A stretch of DNA of 42,646 nt from Candidatus Poribacteria bacterium (GTDB taxonomy: Bacteria > Poribacteria > WGA-4E > WGA-3G): NCBI GenBank assembly GCA_028820845.1, contig JAPPII010000066.1, positions 1-42,646 of the forward strand. The letters are read 5' to 3'. A program made the translations under genes and the position numbers. This document shows, piece by piece, positions 23,802-27,796 of this stretch. Numbering within the stretch: position 1 is the first letter of the stretch; every line of letters starts with the position of its first letter. The notes below the pieces were generated by a model. That model searched no databases, was not told the DNA's origin, and saw nothing but the letters and a program-made list of their open reading frames with translations.

Positions 23802-23820
23802 GCTTAGTCTCCTATTTTGA

Positions 23821-23907
23821 ACGTGCGATAAATCGCACTACTACAAGCGGATCCGTTCGTAGTAGGGCAATTCATTGCCCGTCAACTACCGAAATATTTA
23901 TTGAAAC
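23821..23907 (-). repeat. Three-hairpin repeat, copy A
   Basis: It contains GTGCGAT/ATCGCAC (23823-23838), CTACTAC...GTAGTAG (23838-23865) with a GGATCC centre, and GGGCAAT/ATTGCCC (23865-23880), each sharing its boundary base with the next, followed by an A/T-rich TACCGAAATATTTATTGA. Copy B at 27647-27730 is the same element in inverted orientation. It lies between the SDR and PhyH genes. Confidence 0.85.
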
Positions 23908-23939
23908 CTTATAAAGATTATGCTACAGAAACTTTAGTA

Positions 23940-24800
23940 CTACTCTTGATACGCATACGCCCGGTGCTGAATCCGCAAATCAAAATCGTCCTTTGGATCC
24001 CACGTCGGCATGTCTGATGGCACTTCGTAAGCAAACTGCTCTGTATCCGAAGGGTAGGGATTCGTACGGCGTTCGTGAAGGGCGCGTTGATAGAGTTTAC
24101 AGCGTTGCGTCAGGAATTCCGATTGCCACCACTTATACGTCTCATTCCATCGCGGGGTACGCTGATCAAAATAAATAACCCGGCGGAGGGTCTCGCTTGT
24201 GTTGATTTTACTACCGTGCAAGACCTTCGTATGATGGAGCAGAATATCGCCGGGTTCGACCTCTGCTGGCACTGCATCCGCACGTTCAAAATTGACTTCA
24301 CCTTTATCAATAATCTCTTGTGCCTCTTCAATCCCCCAGAGATGGCTCTTCGGGATGACCCAGACACATCCGTTATCAACAGTGGACGCATCTATGTAGA
24401 TATCGATGTTGAAAATCGGATGATTCTCGCGAATTGCATTGCCATCCCTATGCCACCGCACAGAGGAGCCGTGTTTCGGCAGTTTGAAAACCAGGGATTC
24501 ATAGCACGGTATAAAATCCGGTCCAACGATCCGATGGAGCAGATCCCCGATGAAAGGATGTGCTAACAATCGCAGGGAGAATTCGTTCGGATGCGAGTGC
24601 AAATAGGTTAAGTAATACGGAATACCTTCCGGTCCACGGTGGCACCATGGGTCTGCCGGTCCACCCGCCAAAATCTCGTCAATGAGCCTTTGACTTTCGT
24701 GTTGTATAACGGCAAGTTCATCGGGTTGGATGACACCTTTCAAGATAAGATAGCCGTTATCGTTGAAGAATTGAATTTCGTTATCAGTAATTTTTTCCAT
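23940..24800 (-). CDS. Phytanoyl-CoA dioxygenase (PhyH) family protein
   Basis: A 286-residue Fe(II)/2-oxoglutarate dioxygenase-like protein. The metal ligands are visible in VRWHRDGNA (HxD, near residue 116) and VLHGSKIN (distal His near residue 199), and RRVIYFDQR supplies a likely 2-oxoglutarate-binding Arg. The N-terminus FFNDNGYLILKGVI is typical. AGGAGG lies a rather long 15 bases before the ATG. The substrate is unknown. It starts 28 bp downstream of the kinase-like gene, so the two are probably co-transcribed. Confidence 0.85.
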   Translation of the reverse strand: MEKITDNEIQFFNDNGYLILKGVIQPDELAVIQHESQRLIDEILAGGPADPWCHRGPEGIPYYLTYLHSHPNEFSLRLLAHPFIGDLLHRIVGPDFIPCYESLVFKLPKHGSSVRWHRDGNAIRENHPIFNIDIYIDASTVDNGCVWVIPKSHLWGIEEAQEIIDKGEVNFERADAVPAEVEPGDILLHHTKVLHGSKINTSETLRRVIYFDQRTPRWNETYKWWQSEFLTQRCKLYQRALHERRTNPYPSDTEQFAYEVPSDMPTWDPKDDFDLRIQHRAYAYQE

Positions 24801-24828
24801 TTTTTATCTATGTGCCTCCTGAATCCAA

Positions 24829-25659
24829 TCAAGCCGTCGGAATCGGACTATCAGCAATCGCGGTGTGCCACGCCGAGACGAATGCTTTCACAGATTGGTA
24901 TCGCAACGCTTTATCTGTGTTTGTCGCCTTTTTCGCGACCTGCCACATAGCCTCGTTCCCTTTCCAGTCATTCTGGGAATCGCTACTATTCGCAAGCAGC
25001 ACAAACGCCGTCCGACCTAACATAAAAACATTTGTTCTTTCGTCAATTCGCTCGCCTTTCTGAAACTCCTCTGGTGCCATAAAACGGCTTGAACCGTACA
25101 AGCGTCCCCGGTCATTTACGAAAGGTGCTGGATGGTAGTGATCGAAGTCGTACAGATGTATCTGTTTTTTCCCAAAGTCATAAATAATGCAGCCATCATA
25201 AAAATCTTCAGCGATGAAACCTCTCTTTTCAATAAGGAGGTGAACATCATAAATGACATTAAGTGCTGCGATAATCTCATCCGCTGGCAGTGCGCAAAAC
25301 CTATCACGTGGATGGATTTCCCCGTCACGCAGTTCTCTTTCAGGACGCAAACCTTCGCCATCTACCCAGTTGTAGACCAGCGTGAACCCGTCGGGAGTGG
25401 TGAAAGTGTTGTGCAATTCAGGGAGTGCCTCGTGCTGGACAGCGGCGTGGAAACGAACGGCTTGCTTGAGCCATGTAAGGGTTTGAGGTGTATTACCGTG
25501 TTTAACGAACCAACGTTGGTTATCCACCGCTGCTTGGAACGATTGACATCTTGAGTCATGCTCTGGAAACCGAAACTTAACTTCACCAATCTGCTTTAAA
25601 TAGTCATGGATATTTGTGTCAATCTCCGCAATATCCAGAAGTGGATGTTGGGTGGGCAT
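24829..25659 (-). CDS. Protein-kinase-like protein with altered catalytic motifs
   Basis: A 276-residue protein with a kinase-like fold. FVKHG is the likely ATP lysine, AEDFYDGCIIYDF aligns position by position with HRDLKPSNILF (catalytic Asp kept, the metal-binding Asn changed to Cys), LYDFDHY takes the DFG position, and GSSRFMAPEEF gives the activation segment and APE. The later helix NVFMLGRTAFVLL matches the kinase C-lobe. I recall similar kinase-like proteins in Bacillus relatives with the same FYDG pattern, so the changes are a family trait, not decay. It may be a divergent kinase, small-molecule phosphotransferase or pseudokinase. The SD GAGG precedes the ATG. Confidence 0.7.
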   Translation of the reverse strand: MPTQHPLLDIAEIDTNIHDYLKQIGEVKFRFPEHDSRCQSFQAAVDNQRWFVKHGNTPQTLTWLKQAVRFHAAVQHEALPELHNTFTTPDGFTLVYNWVDGEGLRPERELRDGEIHPRDRFCALPADEIIAALNVIYDVHLLIEKRGFIAEDFYDGCIIYDFGKKQIHLYDFDHYHPAPFVNDRGRLYGSSRFMAPEEFQKGERIDERTNVFMLGRTAFVLLANSSDSQNDWKGNEAMWQVAKKATNTDKALRYQSVKAFVSAWHTAIADSPIPTA

Positions 25660-25736
25660 TCAGTTGTCCTCAGGTATGGCAAAACGACTTCTTAATCATT
25701 TTGCAAGGTAAAAATAGCGGATACTAAAATATCTGC

Positions 25737-25765
25737 TTGCATGCTTTATCAAAATAGTATATCAT
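25737..25765 (+). promoter_or_regulatory. Promoter-like site for the HIT-rhaI operon
   Basis: TTGCAT (25737-25742) and TATCAT (25760-25765) are separated by 17 bases in an A/T-rich stretch. The likely transcript start is about 85 bases before the chosen HIT start. Confidence 0.4.
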
Positions 25766-25857
25766 ATATCTGGACAAAATTTAACCTCATTTTCAAGAAA
25801 ACCCAAAATTCGCCTTTATGTAACATAGCGTGCTATAGCAGATACAGGACCCCTTTT

Positions 25858-26373
25858 ATGCGACATAACCTCTTCGTTCCGAACAAAATGCCTTATGCCA
25901 AAGGAAAAAACCGCCCGAATGTACCGTGTATCCTATGTGCCATCGTCGAAAAAAATGAAAAAGTTCAACGGCTTGAGGTACATCGAACTGATCGCTTTAC
26001 AATTTCGCTGAATCTCTACCCTTACAGTCCAGGGCATCTCTTAATCTTTCCGAATCGGCATATTCTGGATGTCCGAGAATTAAGCCAAGAAGAGGTCCAA
26101 GAGCTTCACGAACTCCAATGCCTCTGTTTTGAGGTGTTGACGTGTGCCTATCAGCCACGGGGCTACAACGTAGGTTATAATATGGGAGATGCCTCCGGTG
26201 CCAGCATCGCGCATTTGCATCTACACGTTGTCCCTCGATATCCGCGTGAATTAGGGTTCATGGATGTTATAAGCGGTGCCCGTATTATCATTGAAGATCC
26301 GAACGCGACGCAGGAAAAACTCGTAGAAATATTTCAGGAACTGACAACTATTCAAGAAAGGAAACCAGAATGA
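25858..26373 (+). CDS. HIT (histidine triad) family hydrolase
   Basis: A 171-residue protein, related to diadenosine polyphosphate-type HIT enzymes. The triad HLHLHVV is near residue 122, with the nucleotide-binding [17 protein letters not shown] near residue 53. Two cysteines (CILC) in the N-terminus belong to a zinc-binding pair with a later His, as in Ap4A phosphorylase-like members. The start at 25858 is inferred from the family N-terminus (M-R-H-x(3)-P-x-K-M); an upstream in-frame ATG at 25741 gives an unlikely extension overlapping the promoter. The stop overlaps the rhaI start by 4 bp, so translation is coupled. Confidence 0.83.
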
Positions 26374-27584
26374 GCAATCTCGCTTATGATTTGTTAGCCG
26401 AAACTTTAGAGAAACAGGGAATACAGGTCGAGGCAGTCAAAGCCCAACTCAAACAACAACACATTGAAACCCCCTCATGGGGTTATGGTAATTCCGGCAC
26501 CCGATTCGGTGTGTTTGAACAACCCGGTGCAGCCCGAAACGCTGCGGAACGTCTGGAAGATGCTGCCACCGTCCACCGTTTCACCGGTATCGCCCCTACT
26601 GTCGCACTCCACATTCCGTGGGATAAAACAGATGATTGGGGGGCATTGAAGCAATACGCCGCTGAAGTCGGTATCGGTATCGGTGCGATTAACCCAAACG
26701 TCTTCCAAGATCAAGCGTATAAACTCGGAAGTGTCTGCAACCCGGATGCCGTTGTCCGCCAACTTGCAACCGATCACATGCTTGAGTGTGTTGAGATCAT
26801 GGAAAAAACTGGGTCTGATCTGCTCAGTTTGTGGTTCGCAGATGGCACGAACTTCCCAGGTCAGTCAAACTTCAGGAAACGCAAAGGCTGGATGCAGGCC
26901 GCTTTAGCCGAGGTCTACGATGCACTTCCAGAAAACACTCGGATGCTCATCGAATATAAATTCTTTGAACCCGCATTCTACCACACCGACCTCCCTGATT
27001 GGGGGACCGCCTACCTCATGGCGACCAAACTCGGTGAGAAAGCGCAAGTCCTCATCGACTTAGGACACCACCCACAAGGCACAAATATTGAGTTTATTGT
27101 CGCTTACTTAATAGACGAGGGAAAACTCGGTGGATTCCACTTCAACTGTCGGAAGTACGCAGACGACGACCTGACCGTCGGCTCTATCAATCCACAGGAA
27201 CTCTTCCTGATTTACACCGAACTCGTTGCCGCAGAACTCGATCCGGAGACGGAAACCGACATCGCCTATATGATTGATCAGAGCCATAATCTGAAACCGA
27301 AGGTCGAGGCGAGCATACAATCCGTCTGCAATCTGCAGAAGGCGTACGCAAAGGCACTTCTTGTTGACAGAGACGCTCTCGCAGCGGCTCAGGACGATGC
27401 AGACCTTGTTGAAGCGGAATCTATCCTCCAACGTGCCTATGAACTGGATGTGAACCCGCTACTGGAGCAGGTCCGCTTGGAGGTGGGACGCGATCCACAC
27501 CCGTTGGCAGCTTACCGGAAAAGCGGTTATTATGAGAAAATTAGTGCTGCTCGCGTCGGGGGCGAAAGCCAGGGCTGGGCATAG
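26370..27584 (+). CDS. rhaI: L-rhamnose isomerase (xylose-isomerase-like TIM barrel, RhaI type)
   Basis: A 404-residue metal-dependent sugar isomerase of the Pseudomonas/Rhizobium L-rhamnose isomerase type, converting L-rhamnose to L-rhamnulose and often accepting other aldoses. Metal and catalytic residues can be read in order: Glu in LIEYKFFEP, Asp and His in [14 protein letters not shown], His in GGFHFN, Asp pair in [11 protein letters not shown] and Asp in [11 protein letters not shown]. The length is normal. It overlaps the HIT gene by 4 bp (ATGA) with an AAAGGAAA ribosome site inside the HIT gene. No rhamnulose kinase or aldolase is in the window. Confidence 0.88.
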
Positions 27585-27601
27585 GTGTCCTTGACAGCAC
27601 T

Positions 27602-27631
27602 AACGACTTGTAGGCGAACGACTTGTAGGCG
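27602..27631. repeat. Tandem 15-bp repeat AACGACTTGTAGGCG x2
   Basis: Two adjacent exact copies at 27602-27616 and 27617-27631, after the rhaI stop. The second runs into GTAGGCGCGTTTTC, the core also present at 6312 and 9193. Confidence 0.75.
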
Positions 27632-27646
27632 CGTTTTCATGAGGTC

Positions 27647-27730
27647 TCAATAAATATTTCGGTAATCGACGGGCAATGAATTGCCCTACTACAAACGAGT
27701 TTGTTCGTAGTAGTGCGATTCATCGCACGT
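27647..27730 (+). repeat. Three-hairpin repeat, copy B
   Basis: It contains GGGCAAT/ATTGCCC (27671-27686), CTACTAC...GTAGTAG (27686-27713) and GTGCGAT/ATCGCAC (27713-27728), preceded by TCAATAAATATTTCGGTA. It is nearly identical to copy A (23821-23907) on the opposite strand. Differences lie mainly in loops and the central stem. Confidence 0.85.
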
Positions 27731-27796
27731 TTTCTGACTCCAAGTGTATCCAACTTTTTACTACATCAAGCCCCGTCAGCAAAATTGATAAGAAAT

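Follow-up and report, generated by a model that had tools for sequence, protein, structure and literature searches.

What are the two hairpin-rich elements that lie in opposite orientation on contig JAPPII010000066.1 of a Candidatus Poribacteria bacterium (assembly GCA_028820845.1), and how are they related to the 3.7 kb of genes that they enclose? The contig was analysed over its full length of 42,646 nt, to which we refer as the window. The original prediction described each element as three consecutive hairpins, suggested either selection on structure or a mobile palindromic unit, and raised the possibility that recombination between the two copies inverts the enclosed genes as a cassette. 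In our estimate (probability roughly 0.93), the elements are pairs of repetitive extragenic palindromes (REPs) of the type called bacterial interspersed mosaic elements (BIMEs) or REP doublets forming hairpins (REPINs); they belong to a dispersed family that is served by a REP-associated tyrosine transposase (RAYT), they represent two independent insertions, and the genes between them are incidental.

The two elements form an inverted repeat of 96 nt (23820-23915 and 27636-27731, 86% complementary), which in an inverted-repeat search is by far the longest such pair of the window, the runner-up being only 34 nt long with 74% complementarity; the predicted inverted pair is thus real. Each element consists of two inverted 24-nt REPs on opposite strands, unit A (GTAGTAGGGCAATTCATTGCCCGT) and unit B (GTAGTAGTGCGATTYATCGCACGT), and in both copies the GTAGTAG ends of the units point inward across a 14-nt spacer. 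At site 1, unit B (GTAGTAGTGCGATTTATCGCACGT on the minus strand) occupies 23821..23844, the spacer between the inward GTAG tags 23845..23858, and unit A, on the plus strand, 23859..23882. This is followed by the A-side half of a larger palindrome, the “carrier” discussed below (23883..23916, plus strand; 27/34 nt agree with its consensus). At site 2, the A-side half of the carrier lies at 27635..27668 (minus strand; 25/34 nt), unit A at 27669..27692 (minus strand), the 14-nt spacer at 27693..27706 and unit B (GTAGTAGTGCGATTCATCGCACGT) at 27707..27730 (plus strand). The two copies differ at 13 positions, of which seven are in the spacer, one is in the loop of unit B and five are in the A-side flank (33 nt), with no differences in the A and B stems or in the GTAGTAG tags.

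The middle hairpin of the original description (CTACTAC/GTAGTAG) is two identical REP tags, inverted and paired with each other, and not a separate hairpin unit. When folded as single-stranded DNA, both 62-nt cores are more stable than 200/200 shuffles (z -3.9 and -4.5). The minimum-energy fold of the first core has the three hairpins that had been described, whereas that of the second is a single long stem, as the A arm is also able to pair with the B arm. Each unit joins GTAGTA to a stable hairpin, and so is a short palindrome with GTAG at its foot, as a REP should be; the two inverse REPs with their linker make up a BIME, or REP dimer. REPINs (reportedly Bertels and Rainey 2011) are a related known system. 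No Rfam family reaches its gathering score in a scan of the window. Close to site 2, at 27610-27633, the sequence GTAGGCG...GTAGGCGCG resembles the stump of a different REP, and an intact GTAGGCGCGGTTTCTAACCGCGCC hairpin is found in the same intergenic gap of relatives (L130, L132 and L141).

The same units are dispersed across the genome, whose assembly comprises 5.69 Mb in 125 contigs (the window being contig C66). A pattern covering units A and B has 190 matches at ≤3 mismatches, 99 forward and 91 reverse, with 0 for the reversed control. The site-1 copy is 92% identical over 85-88 nt to copies on contigs C22 and C114, versus 86% to its partner in the window. One local duplication as the origin of both copies was rejected, since the site-1 copy is nearer to the copies of other contigs. 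The outcome named beforehand as refuting the original prediction, an element lacking further copies and made by such a duplication, is not what the genome shows. We examined 74 clusters, which are fetched places (top-scoring BLAST hits, together with a good number of the first 100 zero-mismatch units listed) drawn from the 190, excluding those with N in the flanks or too close to a contig end; pairs are of the GTAG-inside type in 23 cases and of the GTAG-outside type in 27, and the rest are 20 single units and 4 arrays. Among units with enough context, 10/67 fall inside an open reading frame (ORF) of at least 150 aa, as called mechanically, versus 2825/3605 random 24-mers (78%), and the one such case in the window is no more than a 5' extension, with a TTG start, of the ORF that follows. 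High copy number, dispersal and extragenic location, all characteristic of REPs, are thus observed.

A candidate for the cognate transposase is encoded on another contig. Four Y1 transposase genes of the genome match PF01797. The 200-aa product of a gene on C92 (P0001) scores 90 bits against NF047646 (REP_Tyr_transpos; cut-off 80), and its sole PDB match at E≤1 is 4er8, a TnpA-REP. Four tandem B units lie upstream (5') of this gene and tandem A units downstream (3'), which is the layout of a REPtron, a gene flanked by its cognate REPs. An alignment of 12 RAYT rows, representing 10 distinct proteins (L208 and L209 repeat L048 and L049), shows no variation at residues H85, H87, W125, R134, Y145 and N149. 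H85 and H87 supply the HUH motif, and Y145 is presumably the catalytic Tyr, based on the alignment to 4er8. A record that is 95.5-99.4% identical over the RAYT locus has two B units where the host genome has four, so that the array evidently changes on a short time scale. The nearest relatives of this RAYT are from Candidatus Poribacteria, going by record titles. IS200/IS605 transposons have a related family of Y1 transposases, and two IS200-type genes occur in the same genome (L031 and L032); they were set aside as mobilisers, their proteins scoring over NF033573 and under NF047646, the reverse of the C92 RAYT.

Some further observations concern these genes and their surroundings. A second RAYT, P0002 on C30, scores 124.8 bits; it has another repeat upstream (L033, 1065-1914), and GTAGGTGCGGTTTNTAACCGCACC-type hairpins, which are common in the genome, are its possible partner. 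The C92 RAYT and its REP arrays lie inside a CRISPR-Cas locus (L035, 2074-11834 and 12300-14000) with Pfam matches for Cas6, Cas2, a reverse transcriptase and Cas1, the REPs being in the gaps between genes; a repeat array that looks CRISPR-like lies downstream. In the genome SB0670_bin_34, a second full-length RAYT of the same type, 79% identical, is found on another contig (L212), which is unusual for a normally single-copy gene and may reflect a binning mix.

Matches to the unit pattern are present throughout the genus, in 37/37 genomes including that of the window, with 8 to 221 per genome, and a full-length RAYT at ≥76% identity in 6 of them. The median unit count is 121.5 for these six versus 41 for the 31 without (Mann-Whitney one-sided p = 0.0105). 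At seven further RAYT loci from Poribacteria (L048-L053 and L055), between 3 and 18 such units occur within about 1.5 kb. In more distant bacteria, the RAYT adjoins hairpins with the same type of tag and other stems. Their sequence is GTAGTAGGACGCTTGAGCGTCCGT in a record from a planctomycete and GTAGTAGCGCGATTCATCGCGCGT in one from Verrucomicrobia; in Anabaena azotica (L231), for which the corresponding search pattern gives 176 matches, it is GTAGTRAGGRCTTYAGYCCTYA. When 24 hand-picked distinct units are compared, 97.0% of the pair cells are standard, 5/7 pairs are changed on both sides, the double-changed cells number 28 versus 8.7 in shuffles, and slid controls drop to 27-49% paired; the search pattern lets each side of the stem vary independently. 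The compensatory changes occur only between A and B and between copies of different genomes. They provide a strong indication, though on a non-random sample, that the stems of the units covary across genomes and phyla, as is typical of REPs, and agree with the predicted selection on structure.

Most likely, then, the domesticated transposase gene on C92 spreads these repeats; that the RAYT moves the units is inferred from its adjacency to them, the trend in copy number and the covariation. In outline, one RAYT (TnpA-REP), a relative of HUH/Y1 transposases with a single gene copy on another contig, would serve the family. It would bind the folded single-stranded REP through the GTAG tag and the hairpin, and would cleave near the REP with a 5'-phosphotyrosine, presumably on a single strand. 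The cut strand would be joined to new sites, and REP pairs would spread in this way in intergenic DNA. The two window copies would result from separate insertions at species level, each into an intergenic gap whose neighbouring genes are co-directional, and it would be by chance that the PhyH, kinase-like, HIT and sugar-isomerase-like genes lie between them. The protein family, together with the available text of PMC8266576, supports recognition of GTAG plus hairpin on a single strand, tyrosine cleavage and dispersal by a domesticated transposase.

Several points weigh against this reading. Many units are found without a full RAYT in G008 (111), G010 (90), G025 (82) and G027 (81), and few despite a full RAYT in G033 (35) and G028 (45); because of these exceptions the link between RAYT and copy number is loose, and the absent RAYTs may in some genomes of the genus be assembly gaps. 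Three RAYT loci (L054, L056 and L057) are without any unit of the pattern, and the 24 units of the covariation analysis came from lists whose pattern already resembled a palindrome.

The relation of the elements to the enclosed genes was assessed at orthologous sites. Both elements sit just downstream of a gene end, each in a gap that separates two genes of the same direction. The surrounding genes have family matches to the NAD-dependent epimerase family, PhyH, HIT and GFO/IDH/MocA, together with two matches under the Pfam cut-off, to a protein kinase (27.1 bits) and to a xylose-isomerase-like TIM barrel (27.0 bits). For each site, 20 relatives (partly different sets) were taken from 33 other same-genus genomes, chosen for having listed neighbouring matches to either side of it. 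A REP is present at site 1 in 0/20 and is absent at site 2 from 19/20; the remaining genome, G033, has a decayed REP pair at site 2 in the other orientation, which probably represents an independent event. These empty sites, the copy number and the flanking of the cognate RAYT by the same units bear out the suggestion of a mobile palindromic unit. At site 1, the gap in L107, L108, L111 and L117 (genomes G012, G023, G015 and G016) holds another small palindrome, GCTACGGCACAGCGGTGTGTGCC or close to it, and this spot thus appears to turn over palindromic elements.

The proposal that the copies bound a mobile or invertible 3.7-kb cassette, with recombination flipping or moving the genes, is barely credible in the light of these comparisons. 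The copies are indeed inverted and sufficiently alike that they could in principle recombine, but such recombination, possible on paper, was not seen. The window genes around the sites recur across the genus, and their order and orientation are kept in relatives that lack the repeats; in 21/21 same-genus relatives for which the matches listed put a flanking gene and cassette genes on one contig, all of these matches are on one strand. SB0670_bin_34, a genome ∼99% identical (98-99.6% here), has both copies, 86.5% alike over 96 nt, with the genes in the same orientation, and the nearest copies to that of site 1 are elsewhere, as noted above. One orientation is thus found in all genomes scored, and the genes are present without the repeats, so that those between the two copies appear to be incidental, and not a mobile or flipping cassette. 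SB0670_bin_34 also has an insertion of ∼78 bp, not a REP, between the PhyH and kinase-like genes (L288, ∼1813-1892, opposite ∼24820 of the window). The position of both sites just past a gene end would also suit ordinary transcription terminators or mRNA-stabilising hairpins that are not mobile DNA, and REP hairpins elsewhere do act on transcripts, according to the available text of PMC8266576. We regard this as very unlikely, since the orthologous gene ends of relatives are without repeats and a large number of copies form tandem arrays or have opposite orientations, although the hairpins may have a secondary effect on transcripts.

A further rival concerns the carrier. Many GTAG-inside pairs are surrounded by this palindrome, which has arms of ∼30 bp (ATGAAGTTTAAGAA..CGGTAATT / AATTACCG..TTCTTAAACTTCAT) and an arm pattern with 37 occurrences in the genome. 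Measured against 3667 random places, flank complementarity lies above the 99th percentile for 11/23 GTAG-inside pairs, for 6/27 GTAG-outside pairs, and for 0/20 single units and 0/4 arrays. In both window copies the A-side arm is retained and the B-side arm is missing; the consensus used to score them was read from other copies, and the best unrelated place in the window scores 21/34. In further carrier copies, this central junction is occupied instead by a GTAGGTGCGG-type hairpin (L150, L153, L155 and L156) or by a GGATGCCC-type pair (L147 and L148), and by eye the carrier is often set within an outer GTAGCACAAACT/AGTTTGTGCTAC palindrome. In the sister species G012, an A/B pair lies in the same carrier at other places. 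The elements might accordingly be fragments of DDE-transposase miniature inverted-repeat transposable elements (MITEs), with the REP pair as passive cargo in a carrier (ATGAAGTTTAAG...CGGTAATT) moved by an unknown transposase acting on its ends, and the nested GTAG-inside pairs, the number of arms, the A-side half at both sites and the composite in G012 are in its favour. The window copies, however, are not intact carriers, as they are without the B-side arm, and REP units are also found in a different carrier, beside the RAYT, and singly or in arrays without any carrier, which implies that they spread without the one with ∼30-bp arms. For these reasons, and given the low counts outside the GTAG-inside class, we did not accept the carrier palindrome as sole vehicle, and we consider an origin as MITE fragments to be unlikely.

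Under the preferred reading, that of RAYT-served REP pairs, the nesting is an unusual feature of this system, and less usual still is that one carrier holds three unrelated cores. It is possible, if doubtful, that REP pairs preferentially enter the centre (the hairpin tip) of existing palindromes. If so, single-strand transposases would target the exposed loops of extruded hairpins, and nested palindromes would be built layer by layer. In eight regions of Anabaena azotica, only short GTTC/GAAC pairing is clear by eye, and nesting is unsupported there. A second, MITE-like carrier of ∼165 bp, which has TAGTGTTCTGTCA.. / ..TGACAGAACACTA (also CTAGTAGTCTGTCA) as its terminal inverted repeats, contains an A/B pair of the GTAG-outside type whose spacer is 5 nt long; it is present in many similar copies (L036 4028-4080, L037, L038, L039, L040, L149, L187 and L198-L206).

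The system resembles GTAG REPs, BIMEs and REPINs, as presented in the available text of Di Nocera et al. 2013 (PMC3733652), in having a 20-40-nt palindrome with GTAG at its foot, in high copy number and intergenic, and in its inverted heterodimers and tandem arrays; pairs with GTAG inside are there called “tail-tail heterodimers”. It differs from known GTAG REPs in its tag, which is GTAGTAG, preceded by GTTY in the copies inspected. Pairs of the window type combine two units of different stems with inward GTAGs and a 14- or 17-nt spacer, and about half are nested in a larger palindrome. The same text describes similar nesting for GTAG-15 dimers of A. variabilis, and gives T. roseum and H. neapolitanus, besides A. 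variabilis, as species with REP dimers inside palindromes; nesting thus has precedent. The RAYT shares with TnpA-REP and the REPtron (E. coli 4er8; Corneloup et al. 2021, PMC8266576, available text) the HUH motif, the catalytic Tyr, the W94- and R104-equivalents, a single gene flanked on either side by REP arrays, and more than one REP subfamily per RAYT. Unlike E. coli REPs, the Poribacteria stems are short and perfect, with no bulge. The positions of E. coli E100/H101 appear to be D/R in this RAYT, as read from the alignment; D/R at these positions is given for RAYT subclasses 2.5 and 2.7 in the available text of PMC6006769. The protein is only 46-53% identical to the aligned verrucomicrobial, cyanobacterial and Parabeggiatoa RAYTs.

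Our literature searches found no paper describing REPs or RAYTs in Poribacteria, and as far as that literature goes, this is a system of known kind that is newly placed there. A REP/RAYT system is thereby assigned to a lineage of sponge symbionts. RAYTs of the same clade are accompanied by GTAG hairpins of differing stems in Poribacteria, Planctomycetota, Verrucomicrobia and a cyanobacterium, which makes a natural series for testing how the protein reads the stem, and where REPs insert could be tested concretely on the nested palindromes.

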